Assembly: GCA_002746255.1 (NCBI GenBank)
Contig: NVWO01000008.1
Location: 1 to 47,236, forward strand
Direction of reading: 5' to 3'
Source: Rhodospirillaceae bacterium
GTDB lineage: Bacteria > Pseudomonadota > Alphaproteobacteria > GCA-2746255
Length of the DNA stretch: 47,236 nucleotides
Each line of letters begins with the position of its first letter. Position 1 is the first letter of the stretch. Below the pieces are notes generated by a model. That model saw only the letters and a list, made by a program, of their open reading frames with translations. It ran no database searches and was not told the origin of the DNA. The position numbers and the translations under genes were made by a program. Shown one piece after another: positions 30,769-46,492 of this stretch.

Positions 30769-31884
30769 TTATTTCGGATCGCGGTGGGCGGCACCTATGG
30801 CTTCGCTAACATGGGCAAAACCGTCGCGGCGGAGAAGCCGGGCAAGGTCGGCCTTGATGCGTTGGACCAGCCCCGGCCCTTTATAGATCAACGCCGTATA
30901 AAGCTGCACCAGCGACGCGCCGGCGCGAATTTTTTCATACGCCGCTTTGCCGCTGGCGATGCCGCCGGTGCCGATCAAAGGCACGCGTCCTTCTGTCAGC
31001 CGGTAGAAATCAAAAAGGCAGGCGGTGGCAAGGGGAAAAAGGGGCAGGCCGCTTAGGCCGCCGGTTTCCGTTCGCTGCGGGCTTTGCAGATGTTCGGGCC
31101 GGGAAAGGGTCGTGTTGCCAATGATCAGGCCGTCGATGCGCCCCGCAAGGGCAAGGTCGGCAATGTCTGCGCGCGCTTCGGCATTTAGATCCGGGGCGAC
31201 TTTCAGAAGCAGCGGCGTTTTTTTTTCGGGGGTTTTGGCCATTGCGGTCTTGGCCGTTACGGCCTCGGTTCTGGCGAGAATGTCTTCAAGTTTTTCTTTT
31301 GCCTGCAAGTCGCGAAGCCCGGGCGTGTTTGGGGACGAGACGTTCAGCACCAGATAATCGGCCAGATCGGCCATGCCCTCTGCGCCAAGGGCGTAATCGT
31401 TGGCCGCATCTTTGGTGTCGCGGTTCTTGCCGATATTGACGCCGACAAGACCGCTGGGGGCGGCTTCTTTCGCGCGATACTTCCGCAGCCGTGCAACGGC
31501 CCGGGCCATGCCTTCGCCGTTGAAGCCCAGACGGTTGATGACGGCACCGTCCTCGACAAGACGAAAGAGGCGCGGGCGCGGGTTGCCGCTCTGGGGAAGC
31601 GGCGTCACCGTGCCAATTTCGACAAAGCCAAAGCCAAAGCGAAGCATGGCGTCCATGGCTTGGGCGTTCTTGTCGAACCCGGCGGCAAGGCCAACGGGAT
31701 TGGACAGTGGCAGGCCCAGAAATTCGGTGGCAAGGATGGGGTCGTCGGGCGCGCATGTCCGAGGCACCAGACCCATAGAAAGGGCGCGGATGGTCAAGGC
31801 ATGGGCCGTTTCCGGCGGCAAATGCCTAAGCAAAGGCGCGATGGCCTCAAAAAATCTGGAAAGTCCGGAAACACCCAATGCCAT
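30769..31884 (-). CDS. pyrD: Dihydroorotate dehydrogenase (quinone), class 2
   Basis: A 371-residue membrane-linked flavoprotein of pyrimidine synthesis. The N-terminal helical extension of class 2 is present (ending before the barrel at NPVGLAAGFDKNAQ). The barrel has FMN and substrate motifs GFVEIGTVTP, VNIGKN and VSSPNTPGLRDLQ with the catalytic Ser. The 5' end (first 50 bp of the gene) and 39 bp upstream are repeated 1302 bp away, at the far side of the toxin-antitoxin-like insertion. Confidence 0.96.
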   Translation of the reverse strand: MALGVSGLSRFFEAIAPLLRHLPPETAHALTIRALSMGLVPRTCAPDDPILATEFLGLPLSNPVGLAAGFDKNAQAMDAMLRFGFGFVEIGTVTPLPQSGNPRPRLFRLVEDGAVINRLGFNGEGMARAVARLRKYRAKEAAPSGLVGVNIGKNRDTKDAANDYALGAEGMADLADYLVLNVSSPNTPGLRDLQAKEKLEDILARTEAVTAKTAMAKTPEKKTPLLLKVAPDLNAEARADIADLALAGRIDGLIIGNTTLSRPEHLQSPQRTETGGLSGLPLFPLATACLFDFYRLTEGRVPLIGTGGIASGKAAYEKIRAGASLVQLYTALIYKGPGLVQRIKADLARLLRRDGFAHVSEAIGAAHRDPK

Positions 31885-32062: not shown

Positions 32063-32521
32063 TTATGCTGCGATTGGACGATAGTTGCTTGGGTCGCTGG
32101 CATCAATTTGGATTAGCGGATTTTTTGCAGTTTGCACACACCACTCGGTTATTTTCTCAATGGGTGCATCAAGCTCGAGGTTTAAGCGTTCAGCTGTAAC
32201 CAGGCGGATGATCGCTTCGGCATTGGGATCATCCTCGAACTCGCCTCGCTCCCATCGTCCGATGGTCTGCGCTTCGCGATTTACTATCTTCCCAAGTTCC
32301 GCTTGAGTTATCCCCATTAGGGTACGCAGGAACTTAAGTTCTGCCCCCATCATCCCACTGCGTCGCTTAAGAATATCCGCTGCGATTGCGTTATGCAGCT
32401 TGTTGATGCTGGGAATGATCACGCACTCTTCCCCATGGTCATCCGTGCATTTTTTTAAGTCCACGAGGACGACGTTATCCAGGCCGCTGGCTGTGTAACG
32501 ATATGCGTTGTCCATCTTCAC
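32063..32521 (-). CDS. HTH antitoxin-like regulator (MqsA/YgiT-like C-terminal domain)
   Basis: A 152-residue protein. The N-terminal part begins YRYTASGLDNVVLVDL, a head found in XRE-type antitoxins that pair with DUF4258 proteins. The helix-turn-helix follows at about 80-110 (LRTLMGITQAELGKIV... QTIGRWERG). No zinc-binding Cys pairs of true MqsA are seen. Its start overlaps the stop of the DUF4258 gene by four bases, the toxin-first order. It probably binds the palindrome upstream of the pair and represses it. Confidence 0.75.
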   Translation of the reverse strand: MKMDNAYRYTASGLDNVVLVDLKKCTDDHGEECVIIPSINKLHNAIAADILKRRSGMMGAELKFLRTLMGITQAELGKIVNREAQTIGRWERGEFEDDPNAEAIIRLVTAERLNLELDAPIEKITEWCVQTAKNPLIQIDASDPSNYRPIAA

Positions 32522-32883
32522 CCTCCAAACATGTTTTCATCGTCCCACATCACCGTAATAATTTTTACTGCCACAGGCTGCATGGACGGAACGACAATAA
32601 TATTCACTGTTCGCCTATCTGAATTCGGAGTCGTGCATTGTATCTCGTATTTAAAATAGCCTTGCTGGGTTGCCGACTCAGGATTGTTATAAGTGAATCC
32701 GTTCTTCAGCACGTATAGGACATCAGGTGTGCTGATATTTCTCTCCTTCATCTGGTTTTCAGCGTGTTTAGCCAGCGCAAACTCAAGGTGCTCACACCCT
32801 GCTATCCATCGGATGCGTTCTGTCGCTTGTGCTGGCGACCACGGCTCTGGCAGTTCAGTAGGTTGGCGCGCACCGTTTAGCAT
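32518..32883 (-). CDS. DUF4258 protein, probable toxin of a toxin-antitoxin pair
   Basis: A 121-residue protein. The DUF4258 core is visible: FALAKHAENQMKERNISTPDVLYVLKNG, followed by beta strands YFKYEIQCT, RTVNIIVVP and VKIITVMWD. DUF4258 is related to RelE-like folds, so RNase activity is plausible but not shown. The start lies 8 bp from a perfect palindrome. Paired with the HTH gene by overlap. Confidence 0.75.
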   Translation of the reverse strand: MLNGARQPTELPEPWSPAQATERIRWIAGCEHLEFALAKHAENQMKERNISTPDVLYVLKNGFTYNNPESATQQGYFKYEIQCTTPNSDRRTVNIIVVPSMQPVAVKIITVMWDDENMFGG

Positions 32884-33282: not shown

Positions 33283-33486
33283 ATGGAAAACCCGTTCGGT
33301 AGATCTGGCACAAGCGGCCCGTATCGTCTCTCGCTTGATCTGTTCGCGGCCTATCAGCGCGTGGGCATTTTGCTGGTTGAGGCCGAGCCTTCGGAAAAGA
33401 AAATTTCAGACGGCATCGCCGCTGGGGCGTCCTCGGCGGAAAGTGCGATTGCCATCTACAAGGCGATGACCCGGGCTGGAAAGTAA
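33283..33486 (+). CDS. Small protein, unknown, at the left edge of the phage region
   Basis: A 67-residue frame, MENPFGRSGTSGPYRLSL..., without a clear ribosome-binding site. It contains a hydrophobic-amphipathic middle (DLFAAYQRVGILLVEAEP) and an Ala/Ser-rich end. It ends one base from the convergent holin gene. It may be real; no family recognised. Confidence 0.4.
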   Translation: MENPFGRSGTSGPYRLSLDLFAAYQRVGILLVEAEPSEKKISDGIAAGASSAESAIAIYKAMTRAGK

Positions 33487-33487
33487 C

Positions 33488-33979
33488 TCAGCGCCCGCCC
33501 ATTTTTTCATTCGACCGCTTGTAGACGTAAATCCCAAGGACCGCGAGGCCCACGCTCCAGATCGTACTTAAGGAAGCCATGGCGCCGATGACGGCCCCGG
33601 CGCGCGCCGGATCAAAGGCGATCACATAGGCGACGGCCAGCATCTGGGCAAGCCAGGTCGCGGCCAGAATATAGCCGAATGTGGGGCGCATCCGCCGGAC
33701 AAAGGGGTCGTTTGAATGCACTTCGGTTCGGATCGTCGCGTTGATTTCGCGGAGGATTTTTGTTTCCCGGTCGGCATCTATTTTCGCCATGCGTTCGACA
33801 TGCCGGTTTGCTGCGCGCACGGCTTCCGGCGGGATCGCGCCTTTCGCAATGGCGTTGCCGACATTTTTCAGCGCATCAGCGGCCGATTTTGCCGCCGGGT
33901 GATCGACCATGCCAAGGGCGCTGCCGACCGTGTTGATTAAAAGCGGAAGCCCGATCTGGGCAAGCAGGGCGGCCAGCAT
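33488..33979 (-). CDS. Phage holin (3TM type)
   Basis: A 163-residue protein. It has an N-terminal hydrophobic segment (MLAALLAQIGLPLLINTVGSAL), a charged middle and two more membrane helices (YILAATWLAQMLAVAYVIAFD and the ASLSTIWSVGLAVLGIYVY end). This three-helix layout matches the phage 3TM holin family. It forms the membrane lesion that lets the endolysin reach the wall. It follows the endolysin on the same strand. Confidence 0.75.
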   Translation of the reverse strand: MLAALLAQIGLPLLINTVGSALGMVDHPAAKSAADALKNVGNAIAKGAIPPEAVRAANRHVERMAKIDADRETKILREINATIRTEVHSNDPFVRRMRPTFGYILAATWLAQMLAVAYVIAFDPARAGAVIGAMASLSTIWSVGLAVLGIYVYKRSNEKMGGR

Positions 33980-34405
33980 CTAGATTTCCTCCCGATAATA
34001 AAGATGATCGCCAATCTCGGCGACGGGCGTGCATCCCCTGGCCCAGACCGGAAAGCGGTCGTGCGGGTGAAACCGGATGGCGCCCTCGGTCGGGTCAACA
34101 AGCACGCCGGCAAGGGCGCGGGTGGCAATGCGAAGGGCAATGCGGAACAGCGGTGTGTCCGCACCCGGTGCAACCGGGTGGGCGGCCAGATTTTCGCGGC
34201 AAATCTGAGCGCAACGATTCCCGGGCATCCCGTTTTGCCTTTCCCGGGCGGCGCGGTTCAGGATCGTGGCCGCAATGGCCTCCATGTCGCGGACATTTCC
34301 CGGATGGGGATTGGCGTGGGTCGCCTGGCTTTCTGCACAGATTGTCGTTGCTAGCAGGCGGGCAAGCTGCCGCGTGCTTTTGCGCGCGTCTTCCCGGGCG
34401 GTCAT
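33980..34405 (-). CDS. Endolysin, SleB-type cell wall hydrolase
   Basis: A 141-residue protein starting MTAREDARKSTRQL. The family signature is visible: TTICAESQATHANPHPGNVRDMEAIAATILNRA, with the catalytic Glu at about 25, and a C-terminal GAIRFHPHD...W segment. It cleaves the glycan or its cross-links. The start overlaps the stop of the Rz-like gene by four bases. The long frame upstream to 35068 is an artefact. No signal peptide is visible, so release would depend on the holin. Confidence 0.82.
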   Translation of the reverse strand: MTAREDARKSTRQLARLLATTICAESQATHANPHPGNVRDMEAIAATILNRAARERQNGMPGNRCAQICRENLAAHPVAPGADTPLFRIALRIATRALAGVLVDPTEGAIRFHPHDRFPVWARGCTPVAEIGDHLYYREEI

Positions 34406-34704
34406 CGCCGTCTCGCGATCTGGTTGTCGAGCTTGTCTTCGATCCGCTGCAAATGCCGCGTGATCCGGTTTTCGACATCCTTGAGCAGCGCGATCGACGC
34501 GTAAGATTTTGCGACTTCCAGTTTGAAGGCGGCAAGGGTATCGCGATTGGCATCGATCCCTTCTTCGAAGATGCGGTGCAGGCGTAGAAGCGATTCCTGC
34601 CACTCGCCCCGAGCCCGCCAGATAAGCCAGAACAAACCGGCCAGTGCTGGAATTTCGACGGCGGTAATCCACCAGATAAGATCGGCGTTCCAATGAGGTT
34701 GCAT
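34402..34704 (-). CDS. Small membrane/coiled-coil phage protein (Rz-like spanin candidate)
   Basis: About 100 residues from MQPHWNAD; AGGAGA lies just ahead of this ATG. It has one N-terminal transmembrane helix (IWWITAVEIPALAGLFWLIW), then a long charged helical part that looks like a coiled coil. That shape fits an inner-membrane spanin, and the location next to endolysin and holin agrees, but no family match was certain. It overlaps the endolysin start. Confidence 0.55.
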   Translation of the reverse strand: MQPHWNADLIWWITAVEIPALAGLFWLIWRARGEWQESLLRLHRIFEEGIDANRDTLAAFKLEVAKSYASIALLKDVENRITRHLQRIEDKLDNQIARRR

Positions 34705-34718
34705 GTGGGTCTCCTGGT

Positions 34719-36191
34719 TCAAACCTTAAAATCAATTTTCGCGATGACATTTGCGCTGCCGCGCCAGTCCTGACGGTTTGGCGCCGGGGTGACGGGCAGG
34801 CGGACGGGTTCGGCAAGCAAACAGCCGCTGACGGCATCGAGGCCGTCGTCTTGAACGCGCAGGCCGGGTTGCCATTCACGCATTTCGATAATGAACGGGG
34901 TTTCCCAGACGCTGCGATGGGCATGCAGGGCACCTGCTGCAAGCACGGCGTCGAACGCATCGAGAATGCGCCGGTCTTTGGAGCGGGTCGAAACGGCCTC
35001 AAGAACGCTGGTGCCAAGGCCGTCTTTTGCAACCTCGCGCCGGAGCAGCCCGGGCAGAAAACGCCCAAGCCCGTTCGTTTCCAGATGCATGCTCGGCAGG
35101 TGCAGTTCTTTTAGAAATTTCGTTACCTGGCGGCAAAGCTGGGTTGCTTCATCGTCTTTTGATCGCGGGTCCCAGACGAAATAACGCACGCGATGCAGCC
35201 AATAGCCGCCTTCCTCATCCGTATAAACGGCGGCAATGACGTTCTTGTCCCCGCGTTCCGGCGCGCCAAAGGCGGGGTCCCACCAACAGCTTGCGGAAAC
35301 CAGCCGCTTTCCTTCAAGGGTCAGGGTCGCGACGCGGTTCGATTCGCGGTAATTTAATTCGCCGTCGTAAAGGCGCAGGCGGTCCGGGTCGAGGCGGCTT
35401 TCCATTATATTCACCGAGCGCAGCAACATCTGGCTGGCAAATTTATTGGGCCCGCTACGGCGCTTGATGGCGGCAATCTTTTGCGCGGAAAAGCGTTCCG
35501 GCCAGCGGCTTTTCCCCTTCGCGTCCAGCAGCGGCAGTTCCAGACGCTTGAAGCCCTCAAGGAACGCCCGGGTTTCACCGGCTTCCGGCTGTGGGTGTTC
35601 CGCATAGACGGTGTAATAGGTGTGTGGCGTTCCGATGTAGAGCTGCAGGCCGTTTGGCACCAGCACATAGTCGATTTCGGCAAGCTTCACACGCAAATCC
35701 ATGCGCTTTGGAAGTGTGCCACAGGTGTTTGGCACTTCAACGTCGTCGCAAAGAACAAGGTCCGCACGGCTTCCGGTCACATTCGCATTGATGCCGCGCC
35801 CAAGCATCGATGGGTCGCGAAGCCGCATCATTCGGTTGACGGTAAACCGGGACGCGGCCCATTGGTCCGCTCGCTTTGGTTTCAGGCTCCGGGTCAGGGG
35901 GTGGCGTTCGATGATCTGTTTGACGTTGCGCACCATCTTGTTTGCCAAATCCTGTTCGGCGGCAAGCACGAGGATGCGCAAATTCCGGTTGTTGCTAAGC
36001 AGCCAGGCGGCAAACAGCCCGACGAGTGTCGATTTCCCACTGTCGCGGAAGGCAAGCAGAAGAAGTTCGCGATCGCCTGCCTGCCAGCGTGCGTCCAGCC
36101 AGGTTGCCATCTCCAGATGCAGCTTTGGCGTGGACAGATTTTGCAGGCGATTCCAGATCCAGATGAATTCCGGAAATGTCGGCCTGCTCAT
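34719..36191 (-). CDS. Phage terminase large subunit
   Basis: A 490-residue motor-nuclease that packages DNA. The ATPase has a Walker A-like FRDSGKST at about 48-56 and Walker B ADLVLCDDVE at about 143-152. The nuclease half carries CWWDPAFGAPERGDKN, a metal-binding Asp motif. This is the T7 gp19-like group. The presence of an intact-looking terminase shows that packaging capacity may remain. Its start overlaps the small gene upstream by four bases. Confidence 0.9.
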   Translation of the reverse strand: MSRPTFPEFIWIWNRLQNLSTPKLHLEMATWLDARWQAGDRELLLLAFRDSGKSTLVGLFAAWLLSNNRNLRILVLAAEQDLANKMVRNVKQIIERHPLTRSLKPKRADQWAASRFTVNRMMRLRDPSMLGRGINANVTGSRADLVLCDDVEVPNTCGTLPKRMDLRVKLAEIDYVLVPNGLQLYIGTPHTYYTVYAEHPQPEAGETRAFLEGFKRLELPLLDAKGKSRWPERFSAQKIAAIKRRSGPNKFASQMLLRSVNIMESRLDPDRLRLYDGELNYRESNRVATLTLEGKRLVSASCWWDPAFGAPERGDKNVIAAVYTDEEGGYWLHRVRYFVWDPRSKDDEATQLCRQVTKFLKELHLPSMHLETNGLGRFLPGLLRREVAKDGLGTSVLEAVSTRSKDRRILDAFDAVLAAGALHAHRSVWETPFIIEMREWQPGLRVQDDGLDAVSGCLLAEPVRLPVTPAPNRQDWRGSANVIAKIDFKV

Positions 36192-36484
36192 TCTTCATCA
36201 ACCCTTTCCGTCAGGGCGGTGCGTGCTTCGGTAATCAGCTTTTCCATGTCTTCATTCGTTTCCTCACCATCGCTTTCATTTGTTTCTGCCCAACGCGCGA
36301 GTCGAACCAGCAATTCCATGTGGGAAAGTGCGGCGCGACATGCGGCGTGATGGGCGGCAAACCCTTTGGGGTCCCGTGGCTGCGTTTCGGCGGCAAAATG
36401 GCGATAGCCGATCAGCGCCTTTTCCATCAGACCGGGAAGGGCGGCATGTATCTGCCCGCGCAGGGTGCGCATTTTCTTTGGCAT
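36188..36484 (-). CDS. Probable terminase small subunit
   Basis: A 98-residue, mostly helical, acidic-ended protein directly ahead of the large terminase and overlapping it. T7 gp18 (small terminase) is of similar size and place. No helix-turn-helix is obvious. The assignment rests on position and size. Confidence 0.5.
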   Translation of the reverse strand: MPKKMRTLRGQIHAALPGLMEKALIGYRHFAAETQPRDPKGFAAHHAACRAALSHMELLVRLARWAETNESDGEETNEDMEKLITEARTALTERVDEE

Positions 36485-37620
36485 CAGGCAGGATCCGTGG
36501 CGAACAGCAGGATGGCGATGTTGCGCGTACTAGTGAGCCTGTTTTCGATGTACAGCTTGCCGTCCGTATGGGTCGAATAGGTGACGGTGTTTGTGTTTCC
36601 CGTTGTGCCGGTCAAGGCGCCGGTGGTTGCTTCGACACCGGTGATGTTTGCGATCAAATCGCAAAAGCGGAACCCATCCGTTCGCCAGGAGAAGAGCGCG
36701 CCGCCCGAATCGCCAAACTGGTTCAGGCCAAACGCAAGGGCGATGCCACTGTTTTTAGGAGGGGTGAAGCTTATCGCCGAATCCGTCGCAATCGCGAAGG
36801 TCTGAAAATCAACCTGAGTGCCGGCAAGGGTCTTTAGGGTTTCCCAGCCGAGGTTTGTTCCAGCGCCGTTGACCTTCAGCACCTGATCGACCGTGCCCAG
36901 TGCCAGACGTTCTGGCGTTGAGACACCCTGGGAAACAAGGTCCCCTTGGGTGGTGAGCAGATCAAGCTCGGTGCCGGAAAGGGTAATTTCATTTGCATCT
37001 GCGGCAAGGCCGACGCCACTGCCGGCAATCAGGGATTTGAAGCGCAGGGTCACCCCGGATTTCTGTGCAAAGACGCCTTCACCGCCGCCCAGATTGAGAC
37101 CCTCATTCGACTCGCCGCCAAGGTTGGGGTCGGCCTCCGTCGCGGCGCGGTCAAAGGCTGCGGGTTCGCCAAACTGTCCAAAGCCAAGCAGCTTGTTTGC
37201 TCGTGTTGCAACCGGCGGCAGGGTCATGTCGGTGTCGATGTCGTGGGTTTTCTGGCGCAGGGCGTCTTGCGCAGTGCTTGCAACCGTTTGCACGAACATC
37301 GTCAGTTTATCGAGTTCTTCGTTGATGGCGGCGGCTCGAAAATCGCCGCCTTCCTGAAAATCCGTGCTGCGTTCGACTGGTGCATCGCGCCGGATGGTAA
37401 TGCGGATGCTATTTGTGGGTGGCGCATCGAAAACGACGGTGCCGCCATTGCTGTTGCCGATTCCGGTAATTGTGTGGGACGTCGGCGTTGCACCATCGTC
37501 GAAAAACACTTCGAGATCGGCGGCGTCAAAAATTGGGAAGGGATAGGTGAAAATTGTCTGTGTGCCATCGGCCGTATATTGCACGCGTGGCCGCACGTCA
37601 CCGACGGTGAGTTCAGTCAT
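36484..37620 (-). CDS. T7-like tail fibre (short)
   Basis: A 378-residue protein. The N-terminal VQYTADGTQTIFTYPFPIFDAADLEVFFDDG and the following strands match the T7 gp17 tail-attachment domain (roughly residues 1-150). The remaining part is a repetitive beta region with a distal end (HTDGKLYIENRLTSTRNIAILL). It is shorter than T7 gp17 (553) and might be a trimmed fibre. It would bind the host receptor. Confidence 0.75.
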   Translation of the reverse strand: MTELTVGDVRPRVQYTADGTQTIFTYPFPIFDAADLEVFFDDGATPTSHTITGIGNSNGGTVVFDAPPTNSIRITIRRDAPVERSTDFQEGGDFRAAAINEELDKLTMFVQTVASTAQDALRQKTHDIDTDMTLPPVATRANKLLGFGQFGEPAAFDRAATEADPNLGGESNEGLNLGGGEGVFAQKSGVTLRFKSLIAGSGVGLAADANEITLSGTELDLLTTQGDLVSQGVSTPERLALGTVDQVLKVNGAGTNLGWETLKTLAGTQVDFQTFAIATDSAISFTPPKNSGIALAFGLNQFGDSGGALFSWRTDGFRFCDLIANITGVEATTGALTGTTGNTNTVTYSTHTDGKLYIENRLTSTRNIAILLFATDPA

Positions 37621-37658
37621 GCTTGAAACCTCTTTCGGTTATAGGGGGTGTTTTGGGG

Positions 37659-38132
37659 TTAGCGATCAAACAGCGACGTGCCGGCTTTTTGCAGGAGAGG
37701 GATGCCTCTTTGAAGCGTGCGCAGACGCCCGCGCGCCCTGGCGTCCGCTGCCTGCAAAAGGTCGATGCGGCCCCTTGACAGCCGCACCGCTTCCAACTCG
37801 CGGATGCGTTCGTTGCGAAGGAAGGCATCTTCCCGGTTTGCCAGCTTGCTTTCTTCTGCCAGTCCGCCAAGGACTGCGGCGGCAGACCCGTCGCTGGACG
37901 CAAGCCCCCGCCCAGCAAAACGGGCGCGTCGTGCGGCGGTTTCTTTTTCCAGAAGATCGCGGCGGCGTTGTTCCTCAATCGCGCCGGTTCTCTGAAGCGT
38001 GGCAATTTGTGCCTTGGCGTTGGCGTCGTTCGCGGCAAATTGCGCCAGGTTCTGTTGGGACTGGGCGCGTGCCTGCTGTTGTGAGGAAAAAATATTGAGA
38101 CCGAGCGTTGCAATCGTAGCTAAAGCTGCCAT
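37659..38132 (-). CDS. Small virion-like protein (gp14-like position)
   Basis: About 157 residues from MAALATIATLGLN; the longer frame to 38207 begins inside the tail tubular B gene. A short hydrophobic head is followed by a long Ala/Gln/Arg-rich helical part with ARGLASSDGSAAAVLG in the middle. T7 gp14, a small internal virion protein, sits in the same place. No sequence family was recognised. Confidence 0.6.
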   Translation of the reverse strand: MAALATIATLGLNIFSSQQQARAQSQQNLAQFAANDANAKAQIATLQRTGAIEEQRRRDLLEKETAARRARFAGRGLASSDGSAAAVLGGLAEESKLANREDAFLRNERIRELEAVRLSRGRIDLLQAADARARGRLRTLQRGIPLLQKAGTSLFDR

Positions 38133-40036
38133 TAGTCGTTCACCATGGTTTCGGTTGTGACGGACAAAAGGGTGAAGGGAACCGGCGTGTCCTGTGCAAT
38201 GCGCCAAAGGGGGGCGATCCCCGTTCTTTTCCAGCCGAGAGCGCGGACCCGTTTGTTGCCGGTAAAGGCGACGGGGGCGGCGTCCAGAATGCTGGGGACA
38301 CCCAGTGCCTTGAAGGAAAGTTCTTTTAATCCGTTGCCGACATCGACGTGCATCGCCTTCGTCTCGTGGAGATGGAAGACGGCCTCGATAAGGCGCAGGG
38401 CAGCCCCCTGACGGTTTCCGAACGGTCCGTCGAAGGTGGGTGGCAGGGGTTCGATAACATGCGTGTAGGGCAGGCCGATTTCGACGCTTGATGCCGGTTC
38501 GTCCAGGGTAATGCTGCCGCCGGTTACGATGGCGTCTTGTTGGAAGATCCCATCGGCAATAATTTTTACCGTCGTTCCTTCCAGATGGTCCAACCCGCTC
38601 CAGGTGGTTGTGGGCGTACCGCTTTGACCGCTAAGCGCTGAATCGGTGTAGAAACTTTCGTCGAACTGTTCGATCAGGATGCCGCTGGCGCGCTGAACAA
38701 GGACGTAAACGTCGTTGCCAACCACCGCGACGGAAAGAAAATTTCCATCCGTTTCCTGTAGTGTCCAGGCGGTCACCTGCTCGGCCCGAAAGGCGGTTAC
38801 CGTGGCAAGGCTGCCATCGTTCATCACGATGTGCACAAGCCGGCGGGATTGATCGAAATCCTGATCGACGGGCGTGTTCATCAAATGTTGGGATAGCAGG
38901 GCCAGGTCGTTTGCCTGATAGGCCTGCTCGACATCCGTGAAAAGAAATTCCCGTATTTCCTTGTTGTTCCGGGCCAGAAATAGCGTTGCACCATCGACGT
39001 TGATTGGTGGCAGGCTGCGGTCGATGGGGGAGCCGATACGGGTTTGGCGGCGCAGCTGCACGGTCGTTGGTGTCAGCGGGTCGCCCGTTACCATCCATTC
39101 GGCGCCAGAGGTAAAGACCTGCAAATGCCGGCCCGAGAAGACCGCGCGAATGGCGTTGACCTGATCGGAAAGGATTCCAAATTCGATGGCTTCATCGTCA
39201 AGCCCGGTGCCGACATTGAAGTTGAAGATGTCGGAGGATTTTGACATCCAGAGCCGGTTTGGAAGGTTCCTGGACCCGCCAACGATCAGCCGGTCCTGAT
39301 GGAAGGCAACGGAAACCGGATAGCCGTAAACCTTGGAAAAGGCGGGTTCGTCCCAGTTCTTGGTGGAATTGGTTGAGTTCAGAGTTTCCAGGACGCTGGC
39401 GGTCGCCTGGGTTGGGGACGTCACGCCGAGGATCGTGACTTCCTTCTCCTCAATTCGAAAACGCGTCCCGCCATGGTCGCTGACGAAGACGTCGCCCGTG
39501 GCCGTCAGGGTGATGGCGCCGGTCGTCGCGCTTGGCTGTATCTGAATGGCTTCGTTGACGAACTTGAAATAAGGCTGATGCATGCCTTCGGCATCCATCA
39601 CGTAACTCCACGAATCAATTGCCCATGCGGTATCCGATGTCCGGGTAATGTTTTGTGGCGGAACGTCCGGGTGAACGACAAGAAGGGTGTCGGCGCTCTG
39701 CGTCCAGTTGATCTGGGGGAGCATCGCGGCGCTCCAGGGTGTCGTGATCCCGGCAACCCGCTGCCCGTCGCGGTAAACATCTATCTGAAAATCGGTAAAG
39801 ACGAGCAGGTAGACCTGCTCGGTGTTGAATTCGAAGGCGATTAACCTGCCGGTGCCTAATGCCGTGTCGATGAAACGCAGTCCGGCCCGCCGTTGCACGC
39901 CGCCCGTTGGAAAGATAAACGTGTTGCGCAGTTTTGCCGCCCCATTGGCATAGGCGCGGAGGTCGCTGCGGCCATAAAGAAGTGGCGATAGCTCGCCTGC
40001 GGTGAAACTCGCTTTTGTTTTGTGAATGCGGGGCAT
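38132..40036 (-). CDS. Tail tubular protein B-like structural protein
   Basis: A 634-residue protein. The N-terminus FTAGELSPLLYGRSDLRAYANGAAKLRNT...GGVQRRAGLRF is a recurrent signature of podoviral tail proteins of the T7 gp12 type. It is rich in beta strands and likely forms the tail nozzle. It follows tail tubular A by position and shares one base with the next gene. Confidence 0.8.
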   Translation of the reverse strand: MPRIHKTKASFTAGELSPLLYGRSDLRAYANGAAKLRNTFIFPTGGVQRRAGLRFIDTALGTGRLIAFEFNTEQVYLLVFTDFQIDVYRDGQRVAGITTPWSAAMLPQINWTQSADTLLVVHPDVPPQNITRTSDTAWAIDSWSYVMDAEGMHQPYFKFVNEAIQIQPSATTGAITLTATGDVFVSDHGGTRFRIEEKEVTILGVTSPTQATASVLETLNSTNSTKNWDEPAFSKVYGYPVSVAFHQDRLIVGGSRNLPNRLWMSKSSDIFNFNVGTGLDDEAIEFGILSDQVNAIRAVFSGRHLQVFTSGAEWMVTGDPLTPTTVQLRRQTRIGSPIDRSLPPINVDGATLFLARNNKEIREFLFTDVEQAYQANDLALLSQHLMNTPVDQDFDQSRRLVHIVMNDGSLATVTAFRAEQVTAWTLQETDGNFLSVAVVGNDVYVLVQRASGILIEQFDESFYTDSALSGQSGTPTTTWSGLDHLEGTTVKIIADGIFQQDAIVTGGSITLDEPASSVEIGLPYTHVIEPLPPTFDGPFGNRQGAALRLIEAVFHLHETKAMHVDVGNGLKELSFKALGVPSILDAAPVAFTGNKRVRALGWKRTGIAPLWRIAQDTPVPFTLLSVTTETMVND

Positions 40037-40605
40037 TAGCTTCGCACCCCGACGAGTGTAAAATCCTCGATTGCGGCGGGCGTTTCTTGCTGCGAATCAA
40101 TCATTCGTGCATTTCGGATTTCTTTTTCTGCAAGGCGAAAAAGCGCTTCAGAGCGACTCGTGCTTTCGGTAATGGGAATGGTGAATTCTGCGGCAAGCCT
40201 GGCAATCAGCGCCTGGTCGAAGAAGGGCGGAAAGGTCGCTTCGCCGGGACGAAAGACGTAGGTCAGGGTGACGGTTGCCGCATTCGCATGAATGCGCTGT
40301 TCAGCAATCCGGTACGTCACACCCCGGCCGCGGCCGCCATCGCCCACGGAAAGGGCGCGCAGAAAATCCGGTGGCAGTTGAAAGGCGTAAATAAAATCAG
40401 CGACCGGCTCTGCAACCAATTGTGGAAGGGCCATCTGACCGGTCGCAAAGGTCCATGGGTGAATGGAAAGAAGGGCATCCCGCACAGAAGGGTAGAGGTT
40501 GGCGGCCACATCCGCTTCTGCCGTTCCTTCGTCGAACGCGGAAATAGGATTTGAGCCGATCTTGATAAGCGCACGCGAGCAAAGCGCGATGCTGCTCAAC
40601 GCCAT
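40036..40605 (-). CDS. Tail tubular protein A-like
   Basis: A 189-residue protein starting MALSSIALCSRALIKIG; a GGAGG site lies 6 bases upstream. The middle PWTFATGQMALPQL and FIYAFQLPPDFLRAL segments are typical of T7 gp11-like adaptor proteins that join the head to the tail. Upstream stands the capsid-proximal terminator, so this is the first gene of the tail block. Confidence 0.8.
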   Translation of the reverse strand: MALSSIALCSRALIKIGSNPISAFDEGTAEADVAANLYPSVRDALLSIHPWTFATGQMALPQLVAEPVADFIYAFQLPPDFLRALSVGDGGRGRGVTYRIAEQRIHANAATVTLTYVFRPGEATFPPFFDQALIARLAAEFTIPITESTSRSEALFRLAEKEIRNARMIDSQQETPAAIEDFTLVGVRS

Positions 40606-40622
40606 GGGAAACCTCCAATCTT

Positions 40623-40664
40623 GGAAAAAGGAAGGCCCCGCAGCAAAAGCTGCGGGGCCAAAAG
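40623..40664 (-). terminator. Terminator after the capsid genes
   Basis: On the minus strand GGCCCCGCAGC, TTTT loop, GCTGCGGGGCC (40659-40634), then TTCCTTTTTCC. The 11-bp stem is perfect. It stands between the capsid block and the tail block, as the T7 T-phi terminator does, and probably lets part of the transcripts pass. Confidence 0.85.
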
Positions 40665-40695
40665 ACAAGGCAAGTTGCGAGGGGGCGTTTTGGAC

Positions 40696-40965
40696 TTAGT
40701 CCGTGTCCGTGCCGCCGAAGGCCGTAATGTCGTCGATGTCGACGACCGTGCCCGTGTTGCTTGATACGAGGAACATGCCGGCCGCCATCGTGCCGCCGGT
40801 GTCCACATTTGCAAGCACCATGTCACCGACACGGATGACATCGGCAGCGTCGTTGAAATAGCCGGATGTGTCGACCGTTGCTGCCGTATCGGTTGTGGTG
40901 TAGTGCCAGAGGGTAAAGCCATTGGCATAGCCGATGACGCTAAGATCTTGTGTTTTAAAAGCCAT
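40696..40965 (-). CDS. Small capsid-associated protein
   Basis: An 89-residue protein starting MAFKTQDLSVIGYANGFTLW. It is beta-rich and placed 2 bp after the capsid gene. Proteins of this type occur after capsid genes in many T7-like phages and could be a head decoration. The exact role is unknown. Confidence 0.65.
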   Translation of the reverse strand: MAFKTQDLSVIGYANGFTLWHYTTTDTAATVDTSGYFNDAADVIRVGDMVLANVDTGGTMAAGMFLVSSNTGTVVDIDDITAFGGTDTD

Positions 40966-40967
40966 GT

Positions 40968-41786
40968 TTAACTCTCCAGGCAGCGCATGACGACGATGCC
41001 GGTGGTGTCAACCAGGCACGCACCTTGCGACATCGAACTGTTGATGAAGTGGGCGGCGCGGTCGCCATGCCAGCTGACATCGGTGGTGATATCGGAACCG
41101 CTGGCGTGACCAATGGCCGTCTTGTGGTACCAGAAGCAGGACCGTACGCTGGTGCTTAGCGTCAGCCCGGAATGCGGCATCCATAGGGTGCCGAGCCAGA
41201 ATTTGGCCTGGGTACCGCGCCAGGGGAGTGCGTCGTCACCGACGAAATCCGCGTTTGCGAATTCCGGGATCTCCAGCAAATCGCTCCACTGTTTCCAGCC
41301 GATGATGGCATGGCGCTGACCGTCATCGGGAACGTCCGATTCACCAAGCATCTCGAACGCCGTCAACACTTTTGCCTTTGTCAGGCCATCCGTGTTGCCA
41401 CCTGCGTAGTTGGTGGAGGTGTCAAATTGCGTGATGATCAATTCGTCCGTCTTGCGTCCCAGCGCAAAAGCGCCGGCATTGGCAATGACGTGACGCTTGT
41501 CGATGTTGGTCTTCAGCTCATCTAATTTATCAACCCAGTCGCCGGCGTAATAATCCGCCAACGTGCACTCGACCGGCGTGTGGTCGATGTTCATCACGGG
41601 CACTTGACCATGACGTGCTTTTGTTGATGCGGTTCCTTTGCCAACTTTCTGGAACACGGTGGAAGATCCACGGACGTTGCTTTTCGTGCGAACGGTGTTG
41701 CGAAGCTTGCTGCCCATTCGCTGGTACGATTCGTGGACCTCCCGTTCGAACTGCTTGATAAAGGCTTGATCGATCGTTGTGGCCAT
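40968..41786 (-). CDS. Probable major capsid protein
   Basis: A 272-residue protein with a helical N-terminus (FIKQFEREVHESYQRMGSKLRNTVRTK) and a beta/alpha body ending VVMRCLES. It follows the scaffold gene, which fits the head gene order. It is shorter than T7 gp10A (345), so it would be a compact HK97-fold shell protein. Confidence rests on order and composition. Confidence 0.75.
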   Translation of the reverse strand: MATTIDQAFIKQFEREVHESYQRMGSKLRNTVRTKSNVRGSSTVFQKVGKGTASTKARHGQVPVMNIDHTPVECTLADYYAGDWVDKLDELKTNIDKRHVIANAGAFALGRKTDELIITQFDTSTNYAGGNTDGLTKAKVLTAFEMLGESDVPDDGQRHAIIGWKQWSDLLEIPEFANADFVGDDALPWRGTQAKFWLGTLWMPHSGLTLSTSVRSCFWYHKTAIGHASGSDITTDVSWHGDRAAHFINSSMSQGACLVDTTGIVVMRCLES

Positions 41787-41920
41787 AATGGTCCTCTTAT
41801 TTCAGGGGGGACGGAGTTACAACGCACGTAAAATCACCCGGTTCTCGCGGTGCGGCCGGGGTTCACGCAAATGTCCCTGGGGCCCGGTTGGGTTCTCCCT
41901 GGACGGAAAAGGGTTAAAAG
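41787..41920. other. Gap between scaffold and capsid genes
   Basis: No gene is seen. It includes a C/G-rich part around 41805-41890 and the upstream region of the capsid gene. A minus-strand ribosome site is seen just ahead of the capsid ATG (AAGAGGACC). A promoter for the capsid gene could lie here but was not identified. Confidence 0.3.
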
Positions 41921-42733
41921 TCAGGTTTCGGACGGCTCTGGGTACAGTTCCTGAAAGCCGTTGGCGACGCGGTCGATGAAGTCGGGGTCACGATCTCGCC
42001 AATAGCGCGGATCCTTCATCATTGTGTGCAACTGGCTCTCGCCATTTGTGCCGGTGGCGCTGCTGTTTGATCGCAGGATTGCAGGCTCGCCTTCCGTCAT
42101 CATTCGATGCATGACGAGAATGCCTTCGGCGGTTGAAGAGAGTGCGCCCATGATGTTCTCTGAAAGATGTGCCTTTCCCCAGGAGGCAAGCTGGCTCGAC
42201 ATCTCGCGCCATTTTTCCGTGCCGCCGAAATGCGTTTTCAAATGCGCCGTCTCGCGTTCCGCTTCAAATTCAGCGCCAGCGTTTTCAAGGATGGGAAGCA
42301 CTTTTTCCACAGCAAGGTCATAGACAAGCTGGGCCTGTTTTGAGGTAAAGCCTGCTTGAAAGAGCTGCTGGTTGACGTCGGGGTCCTGGGTGATTGCCTC
42401 GTTCTTGATATCCAACTCGTATTCTTCGGGTGAATCGGGGACGCCAAGCGCCTTTCGGAAAATGCGCATTTCATCTTCCGTCGTATTCTCGTTTGGCAGG
42501 CTGATCATGGTGCCGAGTTTGCGTTCGAGCGCCTGATAGGATTTGACAAGCGCATCGACGCGCACTTCACCGGTTTCGGGGTTCTGAAACTTTTCCGGAA
42601 TGTCCTCCGCCGGGGTGGATGGCGTTGCTTCGGCCTGTTCCGAAGGGGCTTGTTCCATGGGCGGCTGTTCCGGGCTGTCCTGGGGGGCTTCCATCTCCGC
42701 CTCTGGCGGGGTCGCTAAAAGATTCGTGTCCAT
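41921..42733 (-). CDS. Phage scaffolding protein
   Basis: A 270-residue protein. The N-terminal third is Pro/Glu/Gln-rich and acidic; the middle has the VKSYQALERKLGTMISLP and KALGVPDSPEEYEL segments typical of T7-like capsid assembly proteins; the end is helical. It guides shell formation and leaves the head. It lies ahead of the capsid gene. Confidence 0.85.
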   Translation of the reverse strand: MDTNLLATPPEAEMEAPQDSPEQPPMEQAPSEQAEATPSTPAEDIPEKFQNPETGEVRVDALVKSYQALERKLGTMISLPNENTTEDEMRIFRKALGVPDSPEEYELDIKNEAITQDPDVNQQLFQAGFTSKQAQLVYDLAVEKVLPILENAGAEFEAERETAHLKTHFGGTEKWREMSSQLASWGKAHLSENIMGALSSTAEGILVMHRMMTEGEPAILRSNSSATGTNGESQLHTMMKDPRYWRDRDPDFIDRVANGFQELYPEPSET

Positions 42734-43101
42734 AACGATTTCCTTTTTTTATCGTTTTGTGATGAGTCCATAACGGGTTCGGGATCGGGTTTGATCCGAC
42801 CGCCGCCGCGTTCAATCATGGTGGCGAGATAGGCGACAAGCTGACGTTGTCCTTCGAGATAACGAAGGGCGGCGTCGGATGCGTTTGGTCCAAGGTGGCG
42901 ATGATGCGTTCGTGCCATGAGGTGGCGGAGAACGGCGCGCCCGCGCCGCCGCTTGTTTTCGATCGCCGTTGCTTTGGCGGCCGTTTTGGCTGCCGCGTTG
43001 GCCGTTGCTGAATCCGTCGTCTGCACGGTGGCGGGTAGGGGAGCCGGCGGAAAAAAGCGTGCCGGCGGTAGCGGTCTTGGAGAGCGAAACAAACTGGCCA
43101 T
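42715..43101 (-). CDS. Small protein ahead of the scaffold gene, unknown
   Basis: About 128 residues from MASLFRSPRPLPPARFF, with an AGGAGG at 6-7 bases upstream. It is Pro-rich at first, then Ala/Lys-rich with a basic RRRGRAVLRHL segment. In T7-like phages the portal (about 500 residues) normally stands here; this protein is far too short to be one. Its end overlaps the scaffold start by 19 bp. Confidence 0.6.
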   Translation of the reverse strand: MASLFRSPRPLPPARFFPPAPLPATVQTTDSATANAAAKTAAKATAIENKRRRGRAVLRHLMARTHHRHLGPNASDAALRYLEGQRQLVAYLATMIERGGGRIKPDPEPVMDSSQNDKKRKSLWTRIF

Positions 43102-43127
43102 CAACAGCCTCCTCTTTGAAAGGCAGG

Positions 43128-43167
43128 TGAAAAGGAAAGCGCCTCCCGGGGGGGGCCGGGAGGCGCT
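43128..43167 (-). terminator. Strong hairpin terminator ahead of the late genes
   Basis: On the minus strand AGCGCCTCCCGG, CCCCCC loop, CCGGGAGGCGCT (43167-43138), then TTCCTTTTCACC. The 12-bp stem is perfect. It separates the two leading genes from the scaffold-capsid block and shares its U-rich tail style with the capsid terminator. Confidence 0.8.
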
Positions 43168-43218
43168 GCGTGTTTAATTTGGGGAAATGGGGATGATAAA
43201 AAGGAATCTAATCCTAAT

Positions 43219-43686
43219 TTATCGACCCGTCAAGGGAAAAATATTTGTTAAATGGCGTCGCCTGTTTCGTAAGCCAAGGTGGTGATAAAGCTGCCATGGC
43301 GTAAAAATGGTTGTTGCCCGAATGCTCAATACGCGCTTCACCGCTTCGACGCAGGTAAAGGGGCAAATCGGAAAAAGCGCCCAGGGCCGCAAACCATGCC
43401 GTGGCGGCGGTTCCGGCTGGATCGTTGTTGCGACGACGCGAAACCCGTGGGCGCGGTACCAGATCGCAAGGTCAAAATCCAATGGCAGGTCGAGCGCGGT
43501 GATTTCGGTTCGGCGGACAAGCGGGTCGTAGATGAGCCAGCGGGAGCCCTGAAGGATTGCCAGGAAGCAATGGCGGAAGCCATGCCTTAGAAGGCGTAGC
43601 CAGGGAAGGTCCGTCTGGTCGGAAAAAATGACGAGGGCGTGAAGCGATTTTTCATGCCCGTTGTCTGCAGCCTTGCCCGCGTTCAT
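43219..43686 (-). CDS. Unknown protein with His-then-Cys pattern
   Basis: A 155-residue protein. It has HGFRHCFLAILQGSRWLIYDP early and later TCVEAVKRVLSIRATTIFTPWQLYHHL. A His followed much later by a Cys at a helix start is the order of circularly permuted NlpC/P60-like (YiiX/LRAT) folds; this is only a suggestion. It overlaps the upstream gene by four bases (ATGA). Confidence 0.65.
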   Translation of the reverse strand: MNAGKAADNGHEKSLHALVIFSDQTDLPWLRLLRHGFRHCFLAILQGSRWLIYDPLVRRTEITALDLPLDFDLAIWYRAHGFRVVATTIQPEPPPRHGLRPWALFPICPFTCVEAVKRVLSIRATTIFTPWQLYHHLGLRNRRRHLTNIFPLTGR

Positions 43687-44048
43687 TGGACGATGCCTTT
43701 CCTGCGCAAGACCTGCGCCAGACGGTCCAGCGCCTCCTGCCACAGAAAGGCGGCCCTTGCTTCCCTGGGATAGGTTGCATCGGGCGGCAGCAATTTTTCG
43801 CCATATTCTGTCAGCACCAGAAGATGTTCTCGCAGCAACCGGCGCTTGCGGTAAAGGCGGTTGACGACCGCAAGCACATCGTCGGGGTCGCAAGGGCGCG
43901 TGGTCTCGCCGCACCCGGCCTGGATTCGCGCGCCCTCCCGGCGTGCCTGAAAACATTGCACGAACCAGAACCAGGCTTCCTCCGCTGAAGAAAAAGGCTC
44001 GTCGATGAGGGGGAGGTAAGGCTTGGGGGCATAGCGTTCGCTGCGCAT
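43683..44048 (-). CDS. Unknown protein, first gene of the leftward transcript
   Basis: A 121-residue, mostly helical protein. Notable segments are SSAEEAWFWFVQCFQARREGARI, an AGCGETTRPCDPDD loop with two Cys residues, and a basic VVNRLYRKRRLLREHLLVL. Its family was not recognised, though similar proteins are recalled beside repressor genes in alphaproteobacteria. It starts facing the repressor gene, with the operator region in between. Confidence 0.65.
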   Translation of the reverse strand: MRSERYAPKPYLPLIDEPFSSAEEAWFWFVQCFQARREGARIQAGCGETTRPCDPDDVLAVVNRLYRKRRLLREHLLVLTEYGEKLLPPDATYPREARAAFLWQEALDRLAQVLRRKGIVQ

Positions 44049-44106
44049 GGTGGTGGGTCCTCACAGGCAAGGAGGCCACGGCGTGGTGCCGGCCCCGTTG
44101 CCACCC

Positions 44107-44135
44107 AGAAAAGAAGGAATATATTCCCCTGTCAA
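44107..44135 (-). promoter_or_regulatory. Leftward promoter candidate with operator O1
   Basis: On the minus strand a consensus -35 TTGACA (44135-44130) with a weak -10-like TTTTCT (44112-44107) at a 17-base spacing. Palindrome GGAATATATTCC (44116-44127) lies between them. It would drive the genes at 44048 and beyond. Confidence 0.55.
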
Positions 44136-44193
44136 GAAAAATAAGAAAATATTCCTGATGAGATTGTGGGAAAATTATAAGAAAATGTTCTTA
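44117..44193. promoter_or_regulatory. Three operator-like sites GAA-N4-TTC
   Basis: O1 GAATATATTC (44117-44126), O2 GAAAATATTC (44145-44154), O3 GAAAATGTTC (44181-44190). The last lies in the perfect palindrome TAAGAAAATGTTCTTA (44178-44193) that ends at the repressor start codon. Centres are 28 and 36 bp apart. They probably bind the repressor itself. Confidence 0.7.
44152..44181 (+). promoter_or_regulatory. Repressor promoter candidate
   Basis: TTCCTG (44152-44157) and TATAAG (44176-44181) at an 18-base spacing. The elements overlap sites O2 and O3, so the repressor could control its own gene. The -35 is weak. Confidence 0.4.
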
Positions 44194-44825
44194 TGCTGCG
44201 GCATAGCGACATCTGGACGGCTATCGATAGTTTTGCCCGGGCCCATGGGCTTTCACCTTCCGGCCTGGCGCGACGTGCTGGCTTGGATTCAACAACCTTT
44301 AACAAAAGCAAGCGAACCTCGCGGGAAGGGAAGCTGCGTTGGCCCAGCACGGAAAGCATCTCGAAAATTCTTGCGGCGATGGATTGCAGCTTTGGCGATT
44401 TTCTCATCTACCTTGGGGGCGATGCCGCAGAGGGTCTGGCGCAACGTGTTCCGGTCATCGGTTTTGCCGAGGCGGGCGATCAAGGGTTTTTTGACGACGC
44501 CGGTTATCCAACCGGCTGCGGCTGGGATGAGACGGTTTTTCCAAAAAGCCGTGACCCGCACGCTTATGCGCTGGAGATCAGCGGCGACAGCATGCAACCG
44601 ATTTATCGCGACGGCGATATTGTCGTTGTTTCGCCACAGGCAAACATTCGCCGGGGCGATCGGGTCGTTTTAAAAACAAAGGAAGGCGAAGTTTTAGCGA
44701 AGGAGCTAAAGCGTCAGAGCAGTAAGCAGATTGAGCTTCTTTCTCTCAATCGCGCCTATGGGGATCGCATCATTCCCATCGAAAACGTTGAATGGATGGC
44801 CCGCATCGTTTGGGTGAGTCAATAG
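44193..44825 (+). CDS. S24-type self-cleaving repressor (CI/LexA-like)
   Basis: A 210-residue protein. The N-terminal helix-turn-helix (about 8-70) has LSPSGLARRAGLDSTTFNKSKR. The peptidase part has a possible cleavage bond Ala94-Gly95 (GFAEAG), the catalytic Ser133 in ISGDSM and Lys170 in VLAKEL. The Ser-Lys gap of 37 residues equals that of LexA (119 and 156). It should fold as a dimeric repressor that inactivates itself on RecA activation. It is divergent from the leftward structural genes and adjoins lysS. Confidence 0.88.
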   Translation: MLRHSDIWTAIDSFARAHGLSPSGLARRAGLDSTTFNKSKRTSREGKLRWPSTESISKILAAMDCSFGDFLIYLGGDAAEGLAQRVPVIGFAEAGDQGFFDDAGYPTGCGWDETVFPKSRDPHAYALEISGDSMQPIYRDGDIVVVSPQANIRRGDRVVLKTKEGEVLAKELKRQSSKQIELLSLNRAYGDRIIPIENVEWMARIVWVSQ

Positions 44826-44899: not shown

Positions 44900-46492
44900 C
44901 TAATCTGTTGGATTTCCCTGAACAAGTTCGCCGGCCAGCGCCTGGCGGATCAGGGCGCGGGTTTCATCCAGGCCGTAAAGGGCGATAAAGGATCCCATGC
45001 GCGGCCCCTGGGATTGGCCAAGAAGGATTTCATAGAGGGCCTTGAACCACGCTCTCAGATCGGGGAAGGGGTGACGTTTGCCGATTTCATAAAGTTCCGT
45101 CTGGATGGTTGCGGAATCGGCATCGGATGGTAGGGCTTCAATCGCCTTGGCGAGGTCCTGAAGGGCGGCTTGTTCTGTTGGGTCGGGTGCCCGGTAACGC
45201 TTCGCCGGTTTAACGAAGTCCTGATAGTAATGGACGGCATGTTTCGTGAGCGCGTCAAGAATAGGGGCGTTCTGCGGGTTTGCCTTTGGCCGGTATCTGG
45301 AAAGATATTCCCATATAACGGTGCTTTCTTCAGCGTGGCAGACATTCGCAAGATTTAGCAAAATCGAATAGGTCAGATGAAAATCTTCTTTCGGCGGGGT
45401 CCCGTTGTGAATGTGCCAAACCGGATTTATCAAGCGTTCGTCCGGGTTCTGCTCCGGGTATTTTTCCAGAAAGCTTAGATAATCGTCCACATTCCTGGGG
45501 ATCACGTCGAAATAAAGGCGTTTTGCCTTTTTCGGTGATTGAAACATGAAAAGTTTGAGGCTTTCCGGTGGGGCGTAGCGAAGCCATTCGTCAACGCTTA
45601 TGCCGTTTCCCCGTGACTTCGATATTTTCTCGCCATTCTCGTCGAGAAAAAGTTCATAGGTAAAGCCTTCGGGCGGCGTGCCGCCGAGAATGCGGCAGAT
45701 GCGATTGCCCAGGCGCACGGAATCGATCAGGTCTTTTCCCGACATTTCGTAATCGACATCCAGCGCCGTCCACCGCATCGCCCAATCCACGCGCCATTGC
45801 AGTTTGCAATGCCCGCCCGTGACAGGAAGTTCGGTCTGCGTCCCATCTTCGTCCACAAAGGTGATTGTGCCCGCCGTGGTATCCCTTGCGATGATGGGCG
45901 TTTGCAACACACGGCCGGTCTTTGGGGAAATGGGAAGAAAAGGGCTGTAGGTGGCTTTCCGTTCGCTTCCAAGAATTGGCAGAACGACGTTCAGGATGTC
46001 GTCATAACGTTCGAGAACCTGGCGCAGGAAGGGATCGAAGCGGCCGCTTTGATAGCATTCCGTGGCGCTCTGGAATTCATAGTCGAATCCGAACGCATCC
46101 AGGAAACTGCAAAGGCGGGCATTGTTGTGATGTCCAAAACTTTCGTGGGTTCCAAACGGATCTGGGATGGCGGTTAGTGGCTTGCCCAGATGTTCGGTCA
46201 GCATCGCCTGATTTGGGACGTTGTCCGGCACCTTGCGAAGTCCGTCCATGTCGTCGGAAAAGGTAAAAAGACGGGTGGGGATGTCTGTCAGCGTTGAAAA
46301 GGCGCGCTGGACCATTGCCGTGCGCACGACTTCCGCGAAGGTTCCTATATGGGGAAGCCCCGAGGGGCCATAGCCGGTTTCGAAAAGGACATATCCCTTT
46401 TCAGGGCATTTCCCGTGAAGGCGTTCGAGGATGCGCCGTGCTTCTTGAAACGGCCAGGCCTTGCATGCGGTTGCAGCCTCGCGATTGGACAT
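44900..46492 (-). CDS. lysS: Class I lysyl-tRNA synthetase
   Basis: A 530-residue class I enzyme (LysK type), unrelated to the class II LysRS of most bacteria but usual in alphaproteobacteria. The HIGH-like motif is HIGT at 48-51 ([10 protein letters not shown]) and the KMSKS motif is KISKSRG at about 289-295. It charges tRNA-Lys. It lies back-to-tail with the repressor gene, so it may mark the chromosomal side of the phage cassette. Confidence 0.97.

Follow-up and report, generated by a model that had tools for sequence, protein, structure and literature searches.

The stretch analysed here (the window; 47,236 nucleotides) belongs to contig NVWO01000008.1 of a Rhodospirillaceae bacterium (assembly GCA_002746255.1) and carries a compact block of T7-type phage particle genes at 33488-44048 on the minus strand (10.6 kb, from the holin to the first gene, p121). 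Read from right to left, the gene order is p121, p155, a 128-codon open reading frame (ORF; p128), scaffold, capsid, p89, gp11, gp12 and gp14, followed by fibre, p98, TerL, p106, endolysin and holin. An earlier note on this DNA, made from the sequence alone, had described a near-complete, leftward late block in T7 order, and this description holds: all genes that it named are present, in order and open, and the block ORFs have lengths near those of a sister species. Structural proteins of T7 type are recognized by PF05396, PF19821 and the profiles phrog_376, phrog_394 and phrog_1640 (together with PF12236 in the sister species), and TerL has intact ATPase and nuclease motifs (invariant G52, K53, S54 and T55; D149, D150 and E152; D305; E371; D448, D449 and D452). 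Next to p121 lies a divergent S24 repressor gene, a placement shared by almost every complete relative.

The block contains no portal gene, as the earlier note had observed, and the search that it proposed for a podoviral portal elsewhere in the genome gave no match in the whole assembly, even at E<=1 (PF12236). This assembly (G000) consists of 33 contigs and 2.1 Mb at 99.8% completeness, with the window on a contig of 87 kb (C8). It was compared with three sister genomes (G001, G002 and G003), of which G002, a sister species, served as reference for the portal region. Here the same block lies between lysK and pyrD, with a 72-amino-acid (aa) ORF, a 513-aa portal (PF12236, 1.4e-142) and a Bbp19-like gene at the place taken by the 128-codon ORF in the window. 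Base alignment to G002 identifies this ORF, listed as an unknown in the earlier note, as a fusion: it begins as the 72-aa ORF and ends as the Bbp19-like gene (matched by PF25181 only from position 9), and ~1.7 kb that includes the whole portal gene is absent in between, in frame, with the junction around 42940-42960. Nearly all relatives have their own portal, mostly inside the block. A close portal is absent from only two of the 27 genomes with a close TerL, namely G000 and G001, the latter being unassembled at this position (its contig C3 stops past p155, and C2 begins within the fibre gene). The missing portal would consequently be a local and probably recent in-frame deletion, and, with no T7-type portal in block or genome, the block in G000 probably no longer packs DNA.

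It might be argued that the portal is present in the organism and was merely skipped by the assembler, given that G000 is a draft, that C2 and C3 of G001 both end inside the block and that contig C173 of G003 ends just past the repressor. We regard this as unlikely, however: across the junction the reading frame stays open, and the resulting fusion ORF has a start and a ribosome-binding site of its own; a repeat at the junction (if any) measures a few bases and is too short for a k-mer shortcut; and none of the other contigs of this nearly complete genome carries the portal. The breaks in G001 and G003 may come from strain variation or from coverage.

Of 314 good alphaproteobacterial genomes, 49 have a close TerL gene, in almost all cases a single one, and a search with the portal retrieved at least 558 loci; the 80 portal matches listed include Azospirillum, Magnetospirillum, Paramagnetospirillum, Caenispirillum, Telmatospirillum, Terasakiella, Defluviicoccus, Rhodovibrio, Micavibrio and many metagenome-assembled genomes. 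Relatives keep this gene order, with p121, p155 and the repressor alongside the portal block. The earlier note had suggested looking for the block at the same chromosomal place, and this is where it is found in G002 and, next to pyrD, in other families. More specifically, the TerL half adjoins pyrD in the window genus, in several other families, in all seven Azospirillum genomes examined and in Telmatospirillum, and the distance from the repressor to lysK is at most 3 kb in 16 of 78 loci (these neighbourhood counts include a few genomes that are present twice). Every Azospirillum genome examined contains the block whole or in two halves; the portal and TerL halves are ~308 kb apart in Azospirillum TSH64 and ~261 kb in A. 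oryzae, each on one replicon. Distances between TerL sequences follow those between RpoB sequences (25 genomes; Mantel r=0.77, P<=5e-5), and the two share several clades. This correlation, together with the conserved flanks and the single copy, argues that the element is inherited with the host and is not a stray prophage.

Patterns like these bear on a more ordinary explanation, namely that a temperate T7-like podovirus integrated here and decayed until only late genes were kept. The genes are indeed of T7 phage type and the portal is gone in G000, but other families have the same reduced gene set, with a portal, in the corresponding chromosomal position, and this class-wide distribution largely refutes a decaying prophage. 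In addition, TerL follows RpoB, the evolution of the genes is constrained (see below), the contig holds no integrase and the halves are retained though separated. A lone decaying prophage was rejected on distribution, place and rates, and decay in general appears quite improbable to us.

The features of the locus are provided in Table 1.

Table 1. Features of the particle gene block, its control region and its flanks (positions in the window; pLDDT, predicted local distance difference test; HTH, helix-turn-helix).
Feature	Position	Strand	Evidence and remarks
pyrD, chromosomal flank	30769-31884	-	flank conserved across families
Small convergent ORF	33283-33486	+	same place in G002
Holin, GTA_holin_3TM family	33488-33979	-	PF11351 6.6e-13
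Endolysin, cell-wall hydrolase (Hydrolase_2)	33980-34405	-	PF07486 1.5e-7; ATG at 34405 overlaps p106 stop
p106, putatively spanin-like (judged by eye)	34402-34722	-	phrog_29007 4.5e-28; apparent N-terminal membrane helix and coiled coil
TerL, terminase large subunit	34719-36191	-	phrog_38 1.4e-70
p98, small-terminase position (putative role)	36188-36484	-	phrog_31793; directly before TerL in relatives
Tail fibre, T7-type N-terminus	36484-37620	-	phrog_1640 8.9e-33
gp14-like internal virion protein	37659-38132	-	phrog_418 1.4e-5 (weak); position conserved
Tail tubular protein B (gp12-like)	38132-40036	-	phrog_376 5.9e-151
Tail tubular protein A (gp11-like)	40036-40605	-	phrog_394 3.9e-45
p89, small conserved head gene	40696-40965	-	phrog_18004; also in Pelagibacter phage Hodr
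Major capsid protein	40968-41786	-	PF19821 3.8e-84, phrog_3437
Scaffold (T7 capsid assembly protein)	41921-42733	-	PF05396 1.9e-14
p128, deletion fusion	42715-43101	-	N-terminus of pre-portal ORF, C-terminus Bbp19-like
Intrinsic terminator	43138-43167	-	12-bp stem, T tract; between p155 and structural genes
Operator-like palindrome 3	43202-43215		overlaps -35/-10 pair (43233-43205) ahead of portal position
p155, second gene	43219-43686	-	conserved; invariant H39, C40, C112, P130; model pLDDT 85
p121, first operon gene	43683-44048	-	conserved; predicted helical, pLDDT 87; in 76 loci with repressor
Operator-like palindrome 1	44115-44128		overlaps -10 of repressor promoter; GGGAATATATTCCT on block strand, 1 mismatch to AGGAATATATTCCT
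Operator-like palindrome 2	44143-44156		repressor/p121 intergenic region
Repressor, HTH and Peptidase_S24 (LexA/CI type)	44193-44825	+	divergent; PF00717 4.8e-26, HTH_26
lysK, class I lysyl-tRNA synthetase	44900-46492	-	chromosomal flank

Apart from the portal, the earlier note had reported the large internal virion proteins, integrase, replication genes and polymerase as missing. No replication, integration or RNA polymerase genes are indeed present among the block ORFs (the longest being 634 aa; the rest of the genome was not searched for RNA polymerase or replication genes), the 87-kb contig has no tyrosine integrase, and a gene pair of gp15/gp16 size is found in none of 36 loci, in which the gap between gp12 and TerL is at most 4.6 kb. 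The absences of gp15/gp16, integrase and replication genes are therefore features of the lineage and not of decay in this strain, which contradicts the suggestion that a decayed prophage has kept only these genes. A compact block that lacks replication genes could also be a phage satellite, comparable to phage-inducible chromosomal islands, that brings its own capsid genes and depends on a helper; with no integrase nearby, one copy at conserved places and halves that are dispersed in Azospirillum, this is extremely improbable.

Isolated phages are distant by TerL (about 30%), and in G000 the only further TerL region found belongs to a distant phage. Pelagibacter phage EXVC031P Hodr and its relatives (T7-like pelagiphages) have the same order of portal, Bbp19-like gene, scaffold, capsid, p89, gp11 and gp12, and the Hodr capsid is 51% identical to that of the block. 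Hodr differs in being a 34-kb phage with many genes outside the block and with a different TerL family. Beyond gp12 it encodes two large proteins of 783 and 1247 aa (the larger one gp16-like, phrog_342), a pair for which the block has no room, and in the part of Hodr that was compared no p121, p155 or S24 repressor was found. For p121 there are no matches at all among 50,697 phage records. Fold searches against the PDB gave nothing significant for p155 or p121 (for the latter, matches to phage-21 Q antiterminator structures begin only at E 1.5), and neither did profile searches of PDB sequences; antitermination by p121 is only an idea.

To describe selection we used the ratio of nonsynonymous to synonymous divergence (dN/dS), a comparison also proposed in the earlier note. 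Between G000 and G002 this ratio is 0.04-0.18 for most block genes (the endolysin is faster, 0.44) against 0.08-0.23 for the comparison genes groEL, lysK and pyrD, and the mean branch dN of nine block genes (0.100 for G000, 0.111 for G001 and 0.090 for G002) reveals no acceleration on G000. Block genes are under purifying selection up to sister-species divergence. Because dS is about 1-2 (saturated), relaxed selection cannot date the portal deletion and a recent loss would not show; such a loss fits both the low dN/dS and the unaccelerated G000 branch.

The same observations might be explained by a block that works without a portal (through empty shells, tail parts or lysis) or that uses the portal of another element, since purifying selection acts over this range on the remaining genes, all of them intact, and its operators and terminator are kept. 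Against this, portal absence among the TerL carriers is confined to the two genomes mentioned above, one of them unassembled there; G000 has no second T7-type portal, its other TerL region is from a distant phage, and the saturated dS would hide a recent loss. A portal-less function is accordingly a very unlikely explanation. The earlier note had proposed a domesticated or gene transfer agent (GTA)-like module with a portal borrowed from elsewhere. Borrowing was rejected, as there is no PF12236 in the genome, whereas the GTA-like part is supported by place, single copy, co-divergence, selection, dispersal and the lack of an integrase.

Control signals of the block are also shared with relatives. 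Three palindromes resembling AGGAATATATTCCT are found in the window (against 0.7 expected), at the repressor/p121 and portal-operon promoters. Palindrome 1 is conserved in G001 and G002 and is a putative repressor site. In the intergenic region between repressor and p121, 40 of 76 relatives' loci have a match of >=11/14, compared with 1.3% of shuffles, although the motif was derived from the window genus, of which the sequences match by construction. The terminator hairpin is the same in G002, and a terminator at this position is found in 20 of 87 loci (against 0.6 expected).

In the complete form of the element, the S24 repressor may hold the promoters of p121-p155 and of the portal operon via AGGAATA-type operators, and its self-cleavage would release them. 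Scaffold and capsid protein would assemble on the portal, after which TerL and p98 might pack host DNA, as suggested by the lack of replication and integration genes in the block and by the often separated halves. The proteins gp11, gp12, gp14 and the fibre would form a short tail, while holin and endolysin would lyse the cell. In G000, the in-frame deletion would have eliminated the entire portal gene and joined the genes on either side of it, such that this copy should still yield shells, tail proteins and lysis proteins, but no packed particles.

Overall, we consider it likely that the block is a single copy of a podovirus-derived, host-inherited, GTA-like particle element of Rhodospirillales-type and other early-branching alphaproteobacteria, from which the portal has been deleted here. 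Found in common with GTAs are the particle genes derived from a tailed phage, the host inheritance, the absence of own replication and integration genes, the inability to move the whole gene set, as seen from the halves 260-310 kb apart in two Azospirillum, and the maintenance by selection (dN/dS); a complete particle gene set is lacking in G000, with the portal deleted and none elsewhere. Several points weigh against our interpretation. The element is described from its genes, with particles and packaged host DNA being predictions for every carrier, and the portal deletion is seen in a 33-contig assembly only. Very old prophages might account for part of the co-divergence and of the shared sites. 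Finally, structural genes are interrupted in two relatives (the portal in G054 and the capsid in G018) and TerL is split in a small-genome genus; loss of the element may thus be under way in some lineages.

In alphaproteobacteria a close comparison is with elements like the Rhodobacter capsulatus GTA (RcGTA; Rhodogtaviriformidae), likewise a single-copy, vertically inherited, phage-derived particle cluster (roughly 14 kb) with lysis genes, dispersed parts, purifying selection and no replication or integration genes. The structural genes differ: those of the block are of T7/podovirus type (PF12236 portal, PF19821 capsid, gp11/gp12, T7 fibre), those of RcGTA siphoviral. The RcGTA tail marker GTA_TIM (PF13547) is found in none of the genomes G000-G003 and in none of the 27 TerL carriers. 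Among 142 genomes these 27 and the 14 GTA_TIM carriers show no overlap, which has an estimated chance of roughly 0.05 and is confounded by phylogeny; mutual exclusion of TerL and RcGTA is suggestive only. A survey found no RcGTA-like clusters in Azospirillales, Rhodospirillales and Rickettsiales (PMC6821227). The Bartonella GTA and VSH-1 similarly represent host-inherited, phage-derived gene transfer (PMC9662315 and general knowledge) but have other phage ancestry, being set apart here by description and not by sequence. Of the three GTA families proposed, none is podoviral (PMC9662315), and a podoviral or T7-like GTA did not turn up in our literature search, which mostly did not extend to subscription journals and preprints.

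Azospirillum lipoferum 4B and B510 were reported to release particles with random host DNA of ~10 kb from unidentified genes (Boyer 2008, as cited in PMC3899980), in an account in which an RcGTA-like four-gene run is the authors' guess for the particle genes of A. lipoferum (PMC3899980). The T7-type block is a candidate for these genes as well, the likeness being at genus level: the Azospirillum genomes examined carry the block, but the set did not include 4B and B510. For the wider proposal, an unrecognized family of T7-type GTAs that is old in Alphaproteobacteria, complementary to RcGTA and also behind the Azospirillum particles, with the window as a freshly disarmed copy, we see roughly even chances. 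If this is true, a podovirus-derived element that bears GTA marks occupies the very orders without RcGTA; gene transfer by host-owned particles would then have evolved on more than one occasion in Alphaproteobacteria and would be common among relatives of Azospirillum and Magnetospirillum. With the block, an old physiological observation in Azospirillum would be matched to named genes that can be deleted, and the portal deletion would serve as a natural knock-out with which to study why such elements stay intact.

Some individual loci are worth describing. In G054, of an Azospirillaceae clade, a ~17-kb stretch (C2:1263357-1280209; L093, L094) interrupts the portal gene within the motif that is best conserved. 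A tyrosine integrase lies just within this stretch, which may be an element with the portal as its attachment site. The capsid gene of G018 is split across two contigs (C9:264897-266141, L097, and C14, L029) that share a 14-base word at the break, and an integrase directly follows the first capsid part. TerL consists of an ATPase ORF and a nuclease ORF ~3.3 kb apart in G071 (L045:5800-10577), from a genus with 0.9-Mb genomes, and two more genomes (G206 and G376) have a similar layout by coordinates. Within the window, an HTH gene and a DUF4258 gene (32063-32883, minus strand) form a toxin-antitoxin-like pair between pyrD and the block, which was not found there in G002. On contig C7 of G001 (38 kb; L092) a separate T7-like portal (31% identical to the G002 portal) is accompanied by a capsid gene, possibly from a real podovirus of the genus. 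Lastly, a 5-kb 'bacteriophage' contig from human faeces (MT838907.1; L407) contains the small ORF-portal-p128-scaffold-capsid-p89-gp11-gp12 part of the element, with a capsid that is 57% identical.

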